A DNA stretch of 64,000 nt from Cryobacterium sp. Y29 (GTDB lineage: Bacteria > Actinomycetota > Actinomycetes > Actinomycetales > Microbacteriaceae), in the NCBI RefSeq assembly GCF_002929825.1, contig NZ_PJJN01000035.1, positions 186,001 to 250,000 on the forward strand, in the 5' to 3' direction. Both the position numbers and the translations under genes were made by a program. Positions 13,001 through 39,916 of this stretch are shown here, in pieces; the first letter of the stretch is position 1, and the number at the start of each line of letters is the position of its first letter. The notes below the pieces were generated by a model. It saw only the letters and a program-made list of their open reading frames with translations. It made no database searches and had not been told where the DNA came from.

Positions 13001-13035
13001 AAAAAAAGCGACCAGCCGAAGCTGGTCGCTTTTTT
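13001..13035. terminator. bidirectional intrinsic terminator
   Basis: AGCGACCAGC, loop CGAA, GCTGGTCGCT, flanked by an A run on the left and a T run on the right, so it can end both the exonuclease transcript (+) and the L31 transcript (-), which converge here. Confidence 0.88.
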
Positions 13036-30771: not shown

Positions 30772-31095
30772 AAATCCTCGAATGCTAGGCAGTTCTCTAA
30801 TTCTAGGTCACGCGGTGGCCCGTCATGGCAAATGACAGGTCACGTCATATCGACCGCCCAGCGTCTTCGTTGCGTATACTTAAAATGCTCCCCACAGTGA
30901 ATCAGTAGATCGGCGAGCCCCCGGGTGGGAGATGGCAGCATCTAGCAGGCCAACTCGCCGGGGGTGATATTTTGCTTGCAGTCCCGCGTGAGAAATGTGC
31001 GGGTCCGTCCTGCGAGAAGGCTGCCGACGCTTGCACAACTATCAAAGGATGGGTTGAGCTCAACCCGCCTTCGCTTCGATGAAGGGTTACGTGAC
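30772..31095. promoter_or_regulatory. ctaB-tkt intergenic region with tkt promoter and folded leader
   Basis: 324 bases without a gene. A plus-strand -10-like TATACT lies at 30875-30880, giving tkt a leader of about 210 bases. Within it CGGCGAG (30911-30917) pairs exactly with CTCGCCG (30954-30960) and encloses a second hairpin, AGATG-GCAG-CATCT (30930-30943). No known riboswitch was recognised. A weaker minus-strand promoter for ctaB is likely near 30800. Confidence 0.5.
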
Positions 31096-33189
31096 GTGGC
31101 AGCTTTCCAATGGAATTCCGTTGACGATCAGGCGGTCGATACCGCACGCATTCTGGCGGCCGATGCCGTTGAGAAGGTTGGGAATGGGCATCCCGGCACG
31201 GCGATGAGCCTCGCTCCGGCCGCGTACCTTCTATTTCAGAAAGTCATGCGCCGCGATCCGTCCGACAACGATTGGATCGGTCGCGACCGGTTTATTCTCT
31301 CGGTCGGCCACAGCTCGCTGACCCAATACGTGCAGCTCTACCTCGGCGGCTACGGTCTCGAGCTCGACGATCTCAAGGCCCTGCGCACGTGGGGTTCCAA
31401 GACTCCCGGCCACCCGGAATACGGCCACACCGACGGCGTCGAGATCACCACCGGCCCGCTCGGCCAGGGCTTGGCCTCCGCTGTCGGTTTCGCCTACGCG
31501 TCCCGCTTCGAGCGCGGCCTGTTCGACCCGGATGCCGCCACCGGCGCCAGCCCGTTCGATCACTTCGTGTATGTCATCGCCGGCGATGGCGACTTGCAGG
31601 AAGGCATCACGAGCGAGGCCTCCTCGCTCGCCGGCCACCAGCAGCTCGGCAACCTCATTGCCATCTACGACAGCAACCAGATCTCGATTGAAGACGACAC
31701 CAACATTGCCTTCACCGAAGACGTCGCTGCTCGATACGCCGCCTACGACTGGCACGTGCAAACGGTGGATTGGAAGAAAACCGGCTCCTACGTTGAAGAC
31801 GTCGCCGAGCTGAACACGGCCATTGAAGCTGCGCAGCAGGAAACCGGCAAGCCCAGCCTGATCATCCTCAAGACGATTATCGGCTGGCCGAGCCCGAAGA
31901 AGCAGAACACCGGCAAGATCCACGGGTCAGCCCTCGGTGCCGAAGAACTCGCCGGTGTCAAGACCGTTCTCGGCTTCGACCCGGAGAAGACCTTCGACGT
32001 GGCCCCCGACGTCATCGCTCACACCCGGCTGGCCCTCGAACGCGGTGCAACCCAGCATGCTGAGTGGACTGTGCAGTTCGATGCCTGGGCTGCTTTGAAC
32101 CCCGAGCGCAAGGTTCTGCTCGACCGAGTGCTTTCCGGAGATCTGCCGGACGGCGTCGAAGCGGCACTCCCGGTCTTCCCTGCCGACACCGCGGTCTCCA
32201 CTCGTGCAGCCTCCGGCAAGGTATTGACCGCCCTCGGCGGCGTCATCCCCGAGCTCTGGGGCGGTTCGGCGGACCTCGCCGAATCGAACAACACCACCAT
32301 CGGCGGTGCGGCCTCGTTTATTCCGAGCGAGCACTCGACCGGCGAATGGACCGGCAACCCGCACGGTCGCGTTCTGCACTTCGGTATTCGTGAGCACGCC
32401 ATGGCCGCGATTCTCAACGGCATCGTGCTACACGGCAACACCCGCCCGTTCGGTGGCACCTTTTTGATCTTCAGCGATTACATGCGACCGGCCGTTCGAT
32501 TGGCAGCGCTCATGCGGGCGCCGTCGATCTTCGTCTGGACCCACGACTCGGTCGCTCTCGGCGAGGATGGTCCCACGCACCAGCCGATCGAACAACTCGC
32601 GACCCTGCGCGCTATCCCGGGTCTCGATGTGATTCGTCCCGGCGACGCCAACGAAACCGCATGGGCCTGGAAAACTATTCTGGAACGCCGGGGCGGCCCG
32701 GCCGGAATCGCCCTGACCCGCCAGAACATTCCCGTCTACGAACGCGGTGAAGGCGCAGCATCCGGGGAAATCTTCGCCTCGGCAAAAAATGTAGCTCGCG
32801 GCGCCTACGTACTGGCCGAAGCGGCCGGCGGAATCCCCGACGTGATCCTCATCGCTACCGGCTCCGAAGTGCAGCTCGCCGTGGACGCTCGCGCCCAGCT
32901 CGCCGCCTCGGGCATCCATGCGCGCGTGGTCAGCGCCCCCTGCCTCGAATGGTTTGAAGAGCAAAGCACCGAATACCGCGAGTCGGTGCTGCCTTCCGCC
33001 GTCACGGCACGGGTATCGGTTGAAGCCGGCCTGGCGCTGACCTGGCGTGGCTACGTCGGCGATGCGGGCCGCAGCATCTCGATCGAACACTTCGGAGCAT
33101 CCGCTGACTACCAGACGCTGTTCCGCGAATTCGGCATCACCACCGAAGCTGTAGTTGCCGCCGCCAAGGAATCAATTAGCGCAGCCTGA
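31096..33189 (+). CDS. tkt: transketolase
   Basis: A 697-residue thiamine diphosphate enzyme moving two-carbon units between sugar phosphates. The TPP/Mg motif is [32 protein letters not shown] in pieces; [20 protein letters not shown] is the N-terminal substrate site, and [15 protein letters not shown] lies in the pyrimidine domain. GTG 31096 gives the usual N-terminus (M)AAFQWNSVD; the frame opens as far as 30964 but that part is not family-like. First gene of the pentose-phosphate cluster. Confidence 0.94.
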
Positions 33190-33289: not shown

Positions 33290-34417
33290 ATGACAAATCC
33301 GACCCCCCTCGCCCAACTGTCCGCAGCGGGCGTCAGCATCTGGCTCGACGACCTCTCCCGCGAACGAATCAACTCCGGCGGACTCCAGAACCTGATCAAG
33401 AACAGCAACGTCGTCGGCGTCACGACCAACCCGACGATCTTCGCCGGTGCCCTGGCCAAGGGCGAAGCGTATACCGAGCAGGTCGCGACCCTCGCGGCCG
33501 CCGGTTCGAACGTGACCGACGCCGTCTTCGCCATCACCACGGACGACGTCGCGGCTGCTTGCGATATCTTTCGCCGGGTCTACGACGCGACGAACGGCCA
33601 GGATGGACGCGTCTCGATCGAGGTTGAGCCGAACCTCGCACGCGACGCGGCTGGCACGGTTGCCGAAGCCCAGAAGCTGTGGGCTAAAGTCAACCGACCC
33701 AACGCGATGATCAAGATTCCGGCGACGGTCGAAGGCCTGGAAGCCATCACGGCGACGATCGCCCTCGGCATCAGCGTCAACGTCACTCTGATCTTCAGCC
33801 TGGAGCGTCACCGCCAGGTCATCAACGCTTATCTGGCCGGCCTCGAGCAGGCCAAGGCTGCCGGTATCGACCTCTCTACGATTCACTCCGTTGCCTCGTT
33901 CTTCGTCTCGCGCGTCGACTCTGAGATCAACGCCCGCCTCGAAGTTATCGGTACCCCCGAAGCCCTCGCGCTCAAGAGCAAGGCCGGCGTCGCCAATGCC
34001 CAGCTTGCCTACCAGGTCTACGAGCAGGCGTTCAGCAGTGAGCGCGCCCTCGGCCTGATCAAGGCCGGGGCGACCAAGCAACGTCCTCTCTGGGCTTCGA
34101 CCGGCGTCAAGGATGCCAGCCTTCCCGACACCCTGTACGTAACCGAACTGGTCGCACCCGAAGTCGTCAACACGATGCCGGAGAAGACCATGCAGGCGGC
34201 GGCCGACCACGGAGTCATCCCGGCCGACTCGGTGACCGGCTCGTATGCAGCCGCAAACGCTGTACTCGATGCGCTGTCCGCACAGGGTGTCTCATACGAC
34301 GACGTCACTCGCCTGCTTGAAGAGGAAGGTCTGTCGAAGTTCGAGGTGTCGTGGAACGAACTGCTCGACACCGTACAGACGGCCCTCACCGCCGCCTCGA
34401 CTCCCTCGGTCGCGTAA
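33290..34417 (+). CDS. tal: transaldolase
   Basis: A 375-residue class of transaldolase found in Actinobacteria. The TNPTIF motif and the Schiff-base Lys in MIKIPAT are present. AGGAG precedes ATG 33290. Its stop codon shares one base with the pgi start (TAATG). It transfers a dihydroxyacetone unit between sedoheptulose 7-phosphate and glyceraldehyde 3-phosphate. Confidence 0.94.
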
Positions 34418-36018
34418 TGAGCTTTCGGATCTCAGTGAGTGGTGCCGCAGCCGATGCTGTGCGCGCCACAGTACCTACCCTGGTCAAAGACCTGGTCGCG
34501 TCCGGAATCACTGCCCAGGATCCCACACTGTGGGGTCCGGCAGTCGAAGCCGAAGCCGCGATGCGTCTCGGCTGGACGGAGTCCGTCGCCGTATCTCGCC
34601 CGCTCGTGGCCGAGATTGTGGAGCTGCGGGCTGCCCTCCAGGCCCGCGGTGTCACCCAGATCGCCCTCGCCGGAATGGGCGGATCGTCGCTCGCTCCCGA
34701 GGTCATCACCCGCACCGCAGGAGTGAACCTCACTGTGCTCGACGCGACCGACCCCGGCCAAGTCCTGTCCGCATTAAACGACAATCTGGCCGGAACGGCA
34801 CTCGTCGTCTCGTCTAAAAGCGGCTCAACCGTTGAAACCGACAGCCAGCGCCGTGTGTTCGAGCGCGCGTTCCGGGATATCGGCATCGACCCGGCCGAAC
34901 GCATCATCGTGGTGACCGACCCGGGGTCGCCGCTCGAGGCATCCGCCCGGGAAGCTGGTTACCGCGTGTTCAACGCCGACCCCACAGTCGGCGGACGGTA
35001 CTCGGCGCTGACCGCGTTCGGTCTCGTTCCGTCGGGGTTGGCCGGCGTTGACATTGGAGCGCTCCTCGACGAAGCCGAATCCATCTCGCTGGCATTGGCC
35101 GTTGATTCGCCCGAGAATCCGGGCCTCGTGCTCGGAGCGGCGATCGCCGCTACCAGCCCTCGTCGGGGCAAGCTCGCCATCGTCTCGGACGGTACCCGCA
35201 TTGTGGGCTTCGCTGACTGGGTCGAACAACTCATCGCAGAATCCACCGGCAAGCTCGGCACCGGCATTCTCCCGGTTGTTCTCGAACTTGACGCTCCCGA
35301 GCTGACCGAGGTGCTACCGGACCTGCAGCTCGTGCGAGTCGTGGCCGACGCCGGCACCGATCTTTTCGCTGAAACCGGCGACGAGGTTCGCGTCAGCGGA
35401 ACCCTCGGAGCACAGTTTCTGGTCTGGGAATACGCGACCGCCGTTGCCGGCCGTTTGCTCGGGATCAACCCGTTCGACCAGCCAGACGTGGAGTCCGCCA
35501 AGATTGCCACGCGCGGGCTGCTGGACACCCGTCCAGCGCCGGAACCGGCCGCCTTCATCGCGGACGGTATCGAAGTGCGTGGCACGCCGCACGTTATCGG
35601 AGCGGCGAGCGATCTCGCCTCGGCAATCGACGCTCTGCTTGAAGAACTCGGCCCCGACGGATATGTTGCTGTTCAAGCCTACGTAGACCGGCTGGCCCTG
35701 CCGGAACTGGCCGAGATTCGCAGCAAGCTCGGCACGCTCTCGAAGCGTCCGGTCACGTTCGGCTGGGGACCACGCTTTCTGCACTCCACGGGACAATTCC
35801 ACAAGGGCGGACCGGCAACGGCCGTGTACCTGCAGATTCTGGCCACGCCGTCGGAAGACCTCGACATCCCCGAGCGCCCCTTCACGTTTGGCGAATTGAT
35901 CCAGGCGCAGGCCAGTGGCGACGCGAGTGTGCTCGCCGAACACGGGCGGCCGGTGTTGACGTTGACCCTGACGCAACCCAAGCAGAATATCTCCACATTG
36001 TTCAAGGCTTTGGCCTAA
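34417..36018 (+). CDS. pgi: glucose-6-phosphate isomerase
   Basis: A 533-residue isomerase with two SIS domains. Sugar-phosphate-binding SKSGSTVET and GMGGSSLAPE, TVGGRYSALTAFGLVP and HSTGQFHKGGP are visible. It appears to be the tal-linked actinobacterial form, more diverged than the classical 550-residue enzyme; a bifunctional or transaldolase-fused origin is not indicated since the tal frame ends. ATG overlaps the tal stop by one base. Confidence 0.9.
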   Translation: MSFRISVSGAAADAVRATVPTLVKDLVASGITAQDPTLWGPAVEAEAAMRLGWTESVAVSRPLVAEIVELRAALQARGVTQIALAGMGGSSLAPEVITRTAGVNLTVLDATDPGQVLSALNDNLAGTALVVSSKSGSTVETDSQRRVFERAFRDIGIDPAERIIVVTDPGSPLEASAREAGYRVFNADPTVGGRYSALTAFGLVPSGLAGVDIGALLDEAESISLALAVDSPENPGLVLGAAIAATSPRRGKLAIVSDGTRIVGFADWVEQLIAESTGKLGTGILPVVLELDAPELTEVLPDLQLVRVVADAGTDLFAETGDEVRVSGTLGAQFLVWEYATAVAGRLLGINPFDQPDVESAKIATRGLLDTRPAPEPAAFIADGIEVRGTPHVIGAASDLASAIDALLEELGPDGYVAVQAYVDRLALPELAEIRSKLGTLSKRPVTFGWGPRFLHSTGQFHKGGPATAVYLQILATPSEDLDIPERPFTFGELIQAQASGDASVLAEHGRPVLTLTLTQPKQNISTLFKALA

Positions 36019-36021
36019 AAA

Positions 36022-36084
36022 AACCAACAAACCGAACCCTTGGTTGGTTCTTCACGGGCAGAGTGCAGTGAGGAACCAACCAAG
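36022..36084 (+). promoter_or_regulatory. alternative hairpins between pgi and zwf
   Basis: CTTGGTTGGTTC (36039-36050) pairs exactly with GAACCAACCAAG (36073-36084), and the pairing continues five more positions inward with one mismatch. An upstream AACCAAC (36022-36028) can instead pair with 36043-36049. The hairpin ends 77 bases before the zwf start and has no U tract. It may be a pgi terminator or processing site, or control of zwf. Confidence 0.55.
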
Positions 36085-36161
36085 CGATCGGACTATTCTC
36101 TCCGCAGCGCCCCGTTGCCTGCGTTCTCGACTTACCCGCACTGAACCGTCTAAGGAGTTGC

Positions 36162-37703
36162 ATGTCCCCGGTGGAAATTACCCCGGAGTTTAATCCGCTC
36201 AGGTCGCCATCCGACTATCGACTGAATCGTATCGCCGGGCCGTCCAGCCTCGTGATCTTCGGCGTAACCGGTGATCTCGCGCGCAAGAAACTCATGCCCG
36301 CGGTCTATGACCTCGCGAATCGCGGCTTACTGCCACCCGGATTCGCCCTCGTCGGGTTTGCCCGCCGAGACTGGGACAACGGAGACTTCATGGAAGTCGT
36401 GCATGATGCCGTGAAGGAACATGCCCGTACAGAGTTCCACGAGGATGTTTGGGCGCAACTGGCCGAAGGCATCCGGTTCGTTTCTGGCACCTTTGACGAT
36501 GACGAGGCATTCACGCGCCTCAGCCAGACCATCGACGAGTTGGACCGTGAGCGCGGCACGATGGGCAACCACGCGTTCTACCTGGCCATTCCGCCCAAGG
36601 CTTTCCCACAAGTGACAGAGCAGCTGCGCCGCTCCGGCTTGGCCGAGCAGAAGAACGGGCAGTGGCGACGTGTTGTCATCGAGAAGCCGTTCGGCAGTGA
36701 CCTGACCACAGCACGCGAGCTCAACGATGTCGTCGAGTCGGTCTTTCCTCCGGACTCGGTCTTTCGGATCGACCACTACCTCGGCAAGGAGACGGTGCAA
36801 AATATTCTTGCGCTGCGCTTCGCCAACGAGATGTTTGAACCGCTCTGGAACGCCAACCACGTCGAACACGTGCAGATCACCATGGCTGAAGACATCGGCG
36901 TGGGAGGTCGAGCCGGCTACTACGACGGTATCGGTGCCGCCCGCGACGTCATCCAGAACCACCTGCTGCAGCTTCTCGCCCTCACGGCCATGGAAGAACC
37001 GATCTCCTTCGACGCTGCCGACCTGCGCGCCGAGAAGGAAAAGGTACTCGCCTCGGTTCGACTCCCCGCCGACCTCGGCCAGGGCACGGCCCGCGGGCAG
37101 TATGCCGGTGGCTGGCAGGGCGGAGAAAAGGTCGTCGGGTTCCTGGAGGAAGACGGCATGAACCCCGATTCCGTCACCGAAACCTACGCTGCCATGCGGC
37201 TGACCATCGACACCCGACGCTGGGCTGGTGTTCCGTTCTATCTGCGTGCCGGTAAACGCCTCGGACGTCGTGTGACGGAAATTGCCGTGGTCTTCAAACG
37301 TGCACCTCAGTACCTGTTCGCACCGGGCCAGACCGCCGAACTCGGCCACAACGCCCTGGTCATTCGGGTGCAGCCCGACGAGGGCGTCACCATCCGTTTT
37401 GGCTCGAAAGTTCCGGGTGTCGTCATGCAGGTCCGCGACGTCACCATGGACTTCGGTTACGGACATGCCTTCACCGAAGCGAGCCCCGAAGCGTATGAGA
37501 GACTCATCCTCGACGTACTTCTCGGCGACCCGCCCCTGTTCCCCCGCCACGAAGAGGTCGAATTGTCTTGGAAAATTCTCGACCCGATCGAAGAGTACTG
37601 GGCTACGCAAGGACAGCCAGAGCCCTACCGCCCCGGCACCTGGGGACCCACATCCGCTGACGACCTGCTGGCCCGCGACGGCCGAACCTGGAGGCGACCA
37701 TGA
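36162..37703 (+). CDS. zwf: glucose-6-phosphate 1-dehydrogenase
   Basis: A 513-residue entry enzyme of the oxidative pentose-phosphate pathway, oxidising glucose 6-phosphate with NADP. Coenzyme site GVTGDLARKKLMP and active-site RIDHYLGKE are intact. AAGGAG precedes ATG 36162 by six bases. ATGA overlap with opcA, its allosteric partner in Actinobacteria. Confidence 0.96.
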   Translation: MSPVEITPEFNPLRSPSDYRLNRIAGPSSLVIFGVTGDLARKKLMPAVYDLANRGLLPPGFALVGFARRDWDNGDFMEVVHDAVKEHARTEFHEDVWAQLAEGIRFVSGTFDDDEAFTRLSQTIDELDRERGTMGNHAFYLAIPPKAFPQVTEQLRRSGLAEQKNGQWRRVVIEKPFGSDLTTARELNDVVESVFPPDSVFRIDHYLGKETVQNILALRFANEMFEPLWNANHVEHVQITMAEDIGVGGRAGYYDGIGAARDVIQNHLLQLLALTAMEEPISFDAADLRAEKEKVLASVRLPADLGQGTARGQYAGGWQGGEKVVGFLEEDGMNPDSVTETYAAMRLTIDTRRWAGVPFYLRAGKRLGRRVTEIAVVFKRAPQYLFAPGQTAELGHNALVIRVQPDEGVTIRFGSKVPGVVMQVRDVTMDFGYGHAFTEASPEAYERLILDVLLGDPPLFPRHEEVELSWKILDPIEEYWATQGQPEPYRPGTWGPTSADDLLARDGRTWRRP

Positions 37704-38644
37704 TCGTTGATCTGCCCAACACCACGACCGCGAAAATCTCGAAGACGCTCGTGCGTATTCGCGAGGAGGGCGGTGCCGTTGCCCTCGGGCGGGTGCTGAC
37801 CTTGATCATCGCCTCACATCTCGGACACGAGGAAGAGGCCATCGAAGCGGCCAACGATGCGTCGAGGGAACACCCAATGCGCGTCATCGTAGTGTCAACG
37901 CAGGAACACGATACGGCTGATGCCGTCGCGCGGGTTGATGCGGAGATTCGCGTCGGAGGCGACGCTGGTGCGAGCGAAGTCATCGTCTTGCGTGTCTACG
38001 GGGCGGCCGCCGCCGACCCGGAGAGCCTGGTTACCGGTCTCCTGTTGTCGGATGCCCCGGTTGTCGCCTGGTGGCCCGGCACGGCTCCCGCCGTTCCCAG
38101 TGACTCCCCTATCGGCCGGATCGCCTATCGACGCATAACGGATGCCTCAGCCCAGCCAGACCCACAGGCAGCGCTGCGCGAGCTCTCCGGCAGCTACCGG
38201 CCAGGAGATAACGACTTCGCCTGGACTCGGCTGACGCTCTGGCGCGCCCAACTCGCCGCGGTTCTGGATCAGCCGCCCTACGAGCCCATCATCGGTATTC
38301 AAGTCATTGGCTCAGCGGCGTCCCCCTCGACGACGCTACTCGCCGCGTGGCTCCAGATGCAGCTGCAGGTACCCGTGGAGTGCAAGCTGACAACCGGCCC
38401 CCTCGCCAATGGCGTGCACGGCGTGCATCTGGAGCGAGCGTCGGGAACGATCTCACTCGAACGCGAGATTCCTGATATCGCCACACTCAGCCAGCCTGGG
38501 CAGCCGCTGCAGGACCTGACTCTCAAGCGTCGCAGCCTGCGGGACTGTCTGGCCGACGAGCTGCGCCGCCTCGACCCCGATGAGCTGTATGGTGAGGTCA
38601 TCACCCGCGGGTTATCGCAGCTCAAAAAAGTGGTGAGCCAGTAG
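37700..38644 (+). CDS. opcA: glucose-6-phosphate dehydrogenase assembly protein OpcA
   Basis: A 314-residue actinobacterial/cyanobacterial-type OpcA, needed for full Zwf activity. MIVDLPNTTTAKISKTL starts the protein; the central APVVAWWPGTAP is a hallmark. It overlaps zwf by four bases and precedes pgl. It has no catalytic motif and is presumed a redox-responsive activator. Confidence 0.92.
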   Translation: MIVDLPNTTTAKISKTLVRIREEGGAVALGRVLTLIIASHLGHEEEAIEAANDASREHPMRVIVVSTQEHDTADAVARVDAEIRVGGDAGASEVIVLRVYGAAAADPESLVTGLLLSDAPVVAWWPGTAPAVPSDSPIGRIAYRRITDASAQPDPQAALRELSGSYRPGDNDFAWTRLTLWRAQLAAVLDQPPYEPIIGIQVIGSAASPSTTLLAAWLQMQLQVPVECKLTTGPLANGVHGVHLERASGTISLEREIPDIATLSQPGQPLQDLTLKRRSLRDCLADELRRLDPDELYGEVITRGLSQLKKVVSQ

Positions 38645-38658
38645 ACCGGAGCCTAACC

Positions 38659-39447
38659 GTGACAAATGACCGACGCGTGCTGCTGCACAAAAACAAACAC
38701 GCCCTAGCCGCGTCGGTCGCTGCACGGTTCCTGACTAATATGGTGGACGTTCTGCATCAGCAGGAGGAAGCGAATGTCGTACTCACCGGCGGTTCCGTCG
38801 GTATCGCTGTTCTGGCTGCCGTCAACGAATCGCCCGCCCGCGACACGATCGACTGGTCGCGGGTTAATTTCTGGTGGGGTGACGAACGTTGGCTGCCACG
38901 CGCCGATCCGGAGCGCAATGAATTGCAAGCACGCGCAGCGCTCCTGGACCACATTTCGGTGCCGCCAGAAAATATTCACGCCTTCGGAGCCTCGGATGAT
39001 GCGGTCGAAGCTGATACGGATGATGCGCTCGATGCTGCGGCTGCACGGTACGCGGCGGAGTTACTGCGTCGTGCTCCTCATGGGGCCCTGTTCCCCCGGA
39101 TCGATGTGATGTTACTCGGAGTCGGACCGGACGGTCACATTGCGTCGTTGTTCCCACACCGATCGGGTATCCGCGAGCGTGAAGCCAGTGTCGTCGTCGT
39201 CCGCGACTCCCCCAAGCCGCCGGCCGCCCGATTGTCGTTGACCCGCCCCGTGATCAACTCCGCGGATCGCGTCTGGCTGGTGCTGGCTGGATCGGACAAG
39301 GCATCGGCGCTCGGACTAGCCCTCGCCGGAGCCAGCCGCGACGAGGTACCGGCTGCAGGAATCAAAGGCCGTTACCGCACCGTGTTCTTTGTTGACAACG
39401 ACGCAGCGGCTCAAGTGCCCGAAAGCCTCATCGCTCCGGGCTATTAG
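38659..39447 (+). CDS. pgl: 6-phosphogluconolactonase
   Basis: A 262-residue DevB-type lactonase with GDERWLP and LLGVGPDGHIASLFP. It hydrolyses 6-phosphogluconolactone in the oxidative pentose-phosphate pathway. GTG 38659 follows GGAG. It closes the cluster tkt-tal-pgi-zwf-opcA-pgl; 6-phosphogluconate dehydrogenase is not here. Confidence 0.93.
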   Translation: MTNDRRVLLHKNKHALAASVAARFLTNMVDVLHQQEEANVVLTGGSVGIAVLAAVNESPARDTIDWSRVNFWWGDERWLPRADPERNELQARAALLDHISVPPENIHAFGASDDAVEADTDDALDAAAARYAAELLRRAPHGALFPRIDVMLLGVGPDGHIASLFPHRSGIREREASVVVVRDSPKPPAARLSLTRPVINSADRVWLVLAGSDKASALGLALAGASRDEVPAAGIKGRYRTVFFVDNDAAAQVPESLIAPGY

Positions 39448-39500: not shown

Positions 39501-39534
39501 AACACCGGTTCTCGACTAATCGAGAACCGGTGTT
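39501..39534 (-). terminator. intrinsic terminator of rbpA
   Basis: AACACCGGTTCTCG, 6-base loop, exact complement; the A run to its left is a U run on the minus strand, 13 bases beyond the rbpA stop. It may also serve pgl on the other strand, though a T run is lacking there. Confidence 0.87.
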
Positions 39535-39547
39535 GCGCGCTCTCGCG

Positions 39548-39916
39548 TCAGTTTGTCGGTGACAACTTGCCACGACGAACGCGCAGCTGGTTGAGGGCCT
39601 CTTCGAGCAGCGACTCGGCCTCTTCTTCAGTACGGCGCTCCTTGACGTAGGCGAGGTGCGTTTTGTACGGCTCGAGCTTCACGACCGACGGAGGATTCTC
39701 CTTGTCGCGCCCGGCTGGCAGCCCTGACGATGGGCAATCGATGGTGACGGGGATTTCTTCGTCCGGTAAGCTTGCCGCAAAATACCGCACGGTTTCATTT
39801 CCGAGCGCATCCCAGTACGAGATTTTGATGCGGTCCGCATGAAAACCGCGGTCCTGCTCGCCCATGGGGCCCGCGCCTACACGCGAGCCACGAATTGCGC
39901 TTCCGCCTGATGCCAT
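39548..39916 (-). CDS. rbpA: RNA polymerase-binding protein RbpA
   Basis: A 122-residue actinobacterial transcription activator that binds the principal sigma factor and RNA polymerase. MASGGSAIRGSRVGAGPMGE is the N-terminal tail with the basic linker; the C-terminal sigma-interacting helix is EEAESLLEEALNQLRVRRG. Only one Cys (IDCPS) is seen where zinc-binding RbpA has more, so this form is probably zinc-free. GGAGG upstream of ATG 39916. Confidence 0.94.
   Translation of the reverse strand: MASGGSAIRGSRVGAGPMGEQDRGFHADRIKISYWDALGNETVRYFAASLPDEEIPVTIDCPSSGLPAGRDKENPPSVVKLEPYKTHLAYVKERRTEEEAESLLEEALNQLRVRRGKLSPTN

Follow-up and report, generated by a model that had tools for sequence, protein, structure and literature searches.

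The stretch analysed here (64,000 nt of Cryobacterium sp. Y29, hereafter the window) carries a sugar-phosphate gene cluster in the order tkt-tal-pgi-zwf-opcA-pgl, with a strong hairpin in the spacer between pgi and zwf. The features of the locus, in window coordinates, are:

30964-33189: tkt; start as listed by the reading-frame tool, family match above the curated cut-off
33290-34417: tal; start as listed by the reading-frame tool, family match above the curated cut-off
34417-36018, plus strand: pgi (glucose-6-phosphate isomerase), upstream of the hairpin; start set at an ATG that overlaps the stop codon of tal
36022-36028, plus strand: unconserved upstream copy of AACCAAC, the partner in the proposed alternative pairing
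36039-36055, plus strand: 5′ arm of the conserved stem, from sequence, fold and alignment
36056-36067, plus strand: loop region of 12 nt, within which the fold places a small inner stem
36068-36084, plus strand: 3′ arm of the conserved stem, from sequence, fold and alignment
36085-36115, plus strand: U/C-rich stretch ACTATTCTCTCCGCAGC after the stem, similar in part of the clade described below
36130-36161, plus strand: conserved block directly upstream of zwf, from an alignment of 17 clade rows
36152-36157, plus strand: likely ribosome binding site AAGGAG, within the conserved block
36162-37703, plus strand: zwf (glucose-6-phosphate dehydrogenase); TIGR00871, above cut-off
37700-38644: opcA; start as listed by the reading-frame tool, family score below the curated cut-off
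38659-39447: pgl; start as listed by the reading-frame tool, family match above the curated cut-off

Family matches agreed with an earlier, sequence-only reading of the window in placing the hairpin between pgi and zwf-opcA-pgl. For pgi, the best NCBIfam matches were glucose-6-phosphate isomerase models, all below cut-off, the top one being a bifunctional model with transaldolase. With the reading frames as listed, the pgi-zwf gap of 143 nt was the largest in the window's cluster; tkt and tal were 100 nt apart, opcA and pgl 14 nt apart, and the tal-pgi and zwf-opcA pairs overlapped. The stem starts 20 nt past the pgi stop codon. The nearest named relatives of the window zwf, at 99% protein identity, were found in C. 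suzukii, Cryobacterium sp. Y57 and sp. Y82. Elsewhere in the genome, outside the window, lie pieces of a second zwf-like gene with stop codons (G000:C34:403997-405097), ∼62-70% identical to the window zwf and apparently broken.

The sequence-only reading had proposed two mutually exclusive stems built from AACCAAC/GTTGGTT-like elements. Its coordinates were all correct: AACCAAC at 36022-36028 and GTTGGTT at 36043-36049 were read from the sequence, and the 17-position stem between 36039-36055 and 36068-36084 is real, with 16 Watson-Crick pairs and one G-U pair. An 89-nt segment folded to −37.8 kcal/mol, compared with a mean of −19.6 (sd 3.1) for shuffled sequences (z = −5.9; 0 of 200 as good). 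When the segment was lengthened to 164 nt, the fold stood out less (z = −2.1, with 4 of 200 shuffles equally good). Nine hairpins were listed by a simple scan for stems over the 64 kb, and two of them scored above the pgi-zwf hairpin. The 3′-arm 13-mer, with up to 3 mismatches allowed, occurred 11 times in the window compared with 13.3 expected, indicating that the motif alone is not unusual.

Conservation was examined in the best 80 of 338 named zwf loci, to which three further loci from genomes of the genus were added. pgi lay upstream of zwf in 79 of the 80; the 80th, L112, starts at zwf. In a DNA tree of zwf comprising 36 rows, 17 rows formed one clade (100/100 support), and the pgi-zwf gap was 109-143 nt in all of them. 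Every one of the 17 had a strong hairpin beginning 0-19 nt after the pgi stop codon, outer pairs included, and 16 of these hairpins were stronger than any obtained from 50 dinucleotide-shuffled versions of the first 110 nt of the spacer concerned. The sole exception was PH29-G1 (L036), where 4 of 50 shuffles were as good. Other Cryobacterium loci examined had either a short pgi-zwf gap or a hairpin that appeared unrelated by eye.

Sixteen of the clade hairpins were aligned (alignment A1); PH29-G1 was omitted for its divergent hairpin and included in a second alignment, A2. Over the 17 pairs of A1, 87.3% of 244 cells were paired, a level reached by 0 of 500 shuffles (counts which, here and below, ignore relatedness and hence are not probabilities). 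Two-sided changes were found at 8 of the 17 pairs, as many as in 2 of 500 shuffles, and the covariation score was 0.245, versus 0.124 in shuffles (0 of 500 as high) and at most 0.098 in slid versions. Further pair types were not exceptional (66 of 500 shuffles). The element is a strong RNA hairpin in one clade of cold-loving Cryobacterium, kept by paired mutations.

Within this stem, the two arms differed in how often they changed. The sequence GAGGAA in the 3′ arm (36070-36075; A1 columns 32-37) was nearly invariant in the 16 aligned genomes, and its 5′-arm partner varied, reaching mismatches in aureum and G035. By parsimony, mid-stem columns 10-15 record a single change in the 3′ arm and seven in the 5′ arm, one of the seven probably being an alignment artefact. 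The spacer of C. flavum (L037, 2889-3000) had a different affinity from its gene: the zwf tree places C. flavum with G035 (100/99), but in spacer and hairpin it closely resembles Y50 and G034 (L041, L008), which belong to another branch. This suggests exchange of the C. flavum spacer through recombination.

The competing stem did not share the conservation of the long stem. Both can be drawn, as had been claimed, but they are unequal, with −37.8 kcal/mol for the free fold and −16.1 kcal/mol when the 7-bp stem is enforced, a cost of ∼22 kcal/mol at 37 °C and of ∼25-27 kcal/mol at 15 and 4 °C. Among the 17 rows, only three kept AACCAAC intact (the window, C. suzukii and sp. Y82), and in 11 rows the alignment had a gap across the whole place; in Y57, the nearest relative, it was changed and the long stem retained. 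Pairing conservation in relatives, the check that the sequence-only reading had itself named, therefore held for the long stem with its 8 two-sided pairs and failed for the alternative one, which had no compensatory changes and paired no better than any of 500 shuffles. It did surpass versions displaced by 1-3 columns, with 70% of 37 cells paired versus at most 54%. Rfam searches at curated and loose thresholds gave no family match, only two weak microRNA matches far under the cut-offs, in agreement with the sequence-only reading, which had recognised no known riboswitch.

An attenuator or riboswitch, in which the two stems would decide zwf expression, has in its favour that both stems are drawable from overlapping complementary segments, that the alternative pairs better than when slid, and that a place ahead of an NADPH-producing gene of a controllable pathway would make sense. 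In known attenuators and riboswitches, however, the competing stems would be conserved and of comparable energy, whereas here the upstream arm is unconserved and the stems lie ∼22 kcal/mol apart, with neither a terminator U-tract nor an Rfam family; moreover, PH29-G1 keeps a hairpin of divergent sequence. We consider such a switch highly improbable. The earlier interpretation is largely refuted in this respect, and its conserved hairpin holds.

Folding of the region closer to zwf did not add a regulatory structure. A consensus fold suggested a second hairpin, which would mask the ribosome binding site of zwf. This hairpin was within the range of shuffles in all nine clade members folded; outside the clade, four relatives were folded and L057 gave z = −2.3. 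The block at 36130-36161, which reads TTTCTGCACTGTCCCGTCAAAGGAGCTGC in much of the clade, appears more conserved than the hairpin itself. Neither structure nor promoter was recognised in it by alignment, folding against shuffles or a sigma-70-like scan.

The near-perfect palindromic arms, with their conserved GGTTCCTC/GAGGAACC core, could also be read as a DNA operator, an inverted repeat binding a dimeric regulator that controls zwf. Selection on the plus-strand RNA would be expected to show in one-sided changes that yield G-U rather than A-C. In the core (columns 6-15) there were 144 Watson-Crick, 9 G-U, 0 A-C and 7 other cells, though this core was chosen after the whole-stem counts had been seen. 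Over all 17 columns, including outer ones that fall beyond the stem in several species, G-U and A-C were about equal (11 and 12), as an operator would allow. When the 85 nt following the pgi stop codon were folded in the 17 clade members, the minus strand gave the better energy in 11 and the plus strand in 5, with 1 equal. Taken together, these sequence patterns are only suggestive of RNA selection on the plus strand.

Along with the G-U but no A-C departures in the core, other observations weighed against an operator. Loop length, and with it the spacing of the arms, differs between species, which argues against an operator of fixed spacing. A covariance model of the hairpins, run on the genome of Y29, found the pgi-zwf place and no convincing second site (next best E = 0.95). 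Neither fixed half-site spacing nor further genomic sites were therefore found, and the repeat lies just downstream of a stop codon, without a promoter-like site in a simple scan. An operator is accordingly an improbable explanation.

Across the genus, the model matched 18 of 57 genomes, in 16 of them at pgi-zwf as judged by contig and position; the matches in the other two, G025 and G029, were by eye unrelated GC-rich places. Two of the 16, G063 and G035, each had one further match elsewhere. The hairpin core GGTTCCTCG...CGAGGAACC occurred as an exact palindrome in 4 of the 57 genomes, one of these occurrences being at pgi-zwf (G013). The palindrome GGTTCCTCGTGCAGCGCACGAGGAACC is identical in L133 (G063) and L139 (G035), both away from pgi-zwf, and that of L133, one of the other three places with the exact core palindrome, looks by eye like an ordinary gene-end hairpin. 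A widely dispersed repeat was rejected, as the matches are mostly single-copy and at pgi-zwf.

The long spacer is found mainly in one clade, and so probably arose by insertion or expansion. This, and the additional matches in G063 and G035, would be compatible with a palindromic mobile or neutral insertion retained by chance. Such an element would not be expected to be mostly single copy at one place (16 of the 18 matched genomes among 57 searched), to show paired changes across the clade, or to be kept as a hairpin in all 17 members examined, and we regard this explanation as quite unlikely.

Strong hairpins at this junction were not limited to the clade. Among 83 pgi-zwf spacers, a hairpin of −18 kcal/mol or lower was present in 25 of 25 spacers of at least 75 nt and in 1 of 58 shorter ones, with the qualification that this threshold is lenient in GC-rich spacers and that short spacers offer less room. 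The long-spacer hairpins outside the clade (L044/L045, L056, L065, L067/L070, L087 and L094) looked unrelated by eye. Four of eight such spacers beat all 50 shuffles (L065, L067, L070 and L094), and L056 was at chance. As a rough comparison, the best hairpin in the 100-nt tkt-tal spacer of the window reached only −14.1 kcal/mol; the tkt-tal region of L046 had a stronger one (−25.5), and the 100 nt preceding tal, possibly with part of tkt among them, gave −27.7 in L065, −36.4 in L070 and −21.7 in L078.

Position and form of the hairpin would fit the end of a transcript. A U-less, I-shaped terminator, partial or full, might end tkt-tal-pgi, with zwf-opcA-pgl transcribed from a promoter of its own in the lengthened spacer. 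I-shaped terminators likewise consist of a single strong hairpin within a few nucleotides of the stop codon and lack a U-tract, and poly-U is stated to be non-essential for termination in 13 genomes, including Mycobacterium gilvum and Bifidobacterium, in one study (PMC8355165). The hairpin here stands directly past the stop codon in the largest gap of the cluster, hairpins occur in all 25 long spacers, and L094, outside the clade, has the look of a plain terminator, with 5 T among the 8 nt that follow its stem. In the clade, however, a U-tract directly after the stem was absent from all 17 members (at most 2 T in the following 8 nt), and co-directional genes of the same pathway follow this putative terminator. 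Runs of 4-5 T occurred further on, within 25 nt, in six clade members. A canonical intrinsic terminator was not found here on the plus strand, the only candidate being a weak 5-pair minus-strand site at 36050-36034. By comparison, another hairpin of the window, between reading frames at 13002-13035, ends in T6.

A scan of 35500-36500 for sigma-70-like promoters gave none, though a scan of this type suits actinobacteria poorly. GGAAC in the 3′ arm followed by GTT 18 nt on, which we take to be an ECF-type promoter motif, was considered and dropped, GTT at that spacing being found by eye in 1 of 17 rows (Y57); in C. glaciale it was one nt closer. In PMC3489674, a C. glutamicum anti-sigma-factor mutant profile gives values of 1.65 for zwf and 2.06 for opcA (unit not seen), which have no bearing on the hairpin. 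On balance, termination at a U-less hairpin, with zwf under its own promoter, is somewhat unlikely.

The explanation we favour, with a probability of just under one half, is that the hairpin is transcribed as an intercistronic stem-loop and marks where the tkt-tal-pgi mRNA ends on its 3′ side, its likeliest role being that of a decay barrier. Polycistronic RNA would be cut by an endonuclease of the RNase E type in the U/C-rich stretch downstream of the stem (36085-36115 is a possible cleavage region), and a 3′-5′ exonuclease such as PNPase would halt at the stem. The tkt-tal-pgi part would then survive apart from zwf-opcA-pgl, allowing the two halves to differ in mRNA level. Transcription through the stem, cleavage and protection are all steps that we infer; genes for RNase E/G and PNPase were found in the genome.

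The hairpin has those properties of a decay barrier that sequence can show, being stable and stronger than its shuffles, lacking a U-tract and conserved in relatives within one clade. In E. coli, according to PMC5927463 (section 7), hairpins that lack a U-tract and bound stabilised parts of operons on their 3′ side are considered to oppose 3′-5′ decay; most of them are conserved in relatives, and Rho was seen to have no significant effect. Like these and other protective stem-loops of the malE-malF and puf type, the present one is a stable hairpin at the end of an upstream operon part, conserved despite sequence drift. It differs in being known from sequence alone, in an actinobacterial host, and in its position, since 17 of 26 of the E. 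coli structures lie inside the downstream gene rather than in the spacer, as described in the same paper. The lack of a U-tract, the E. coli precedent and the presence of RNase E/G and PNPase lead us to favour a decay barrier over a U-less terminator, a choice that sequence by itself would not settle.

The hairpins of other lineages also bear on the mechanism. Because the strong hairpins in long spacers outside the clade appear unrelated by eye, any strong hairpin would seem to be enough, as would suit a barrier more than an aptamer. A wider proposal, that Microbacteriaceae repeatedly and independently set unrelated hairpins at pgi-zwf to uncouple zwf-opcA-pgl from tkt-tal-pgi, and that in the Cryobacterium clade the GAGGAA arm is in addition read by a protein or RNA for control, is doubtful. 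Overall, the hairpin resembles the commonplace structures that bound or stabilise mRNA and not a switch; it adds one more example to a familiar type and is not a new RNA class. A pgi-zwf hairpin was not found described for Cryobacterium within the literature searched, where the match for riboswitches concerned ANTAR RNAs and, in the excerpt available, does not mention the pgi-zwf place.

If the hairpin does act as a decay barrier, it would provide a simple route to two expression levels from one transcript of the sugar-phosphate cluster, and hairpins would possibly have arisen more than once at one junction in Microbacteriaceae. Relatives with and without the hairpin form a small natural set for testing what determines the ratio of glycolytic to NADPH-producing enzymes. 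At the far end of the cluster, a further strong hairpin of 15 bp (39501-39534) separates the end of pgl from a small reading frame on the minus strand (39548-39916); it is A-rich on its left side and is perhaps a minus-strand terminator.
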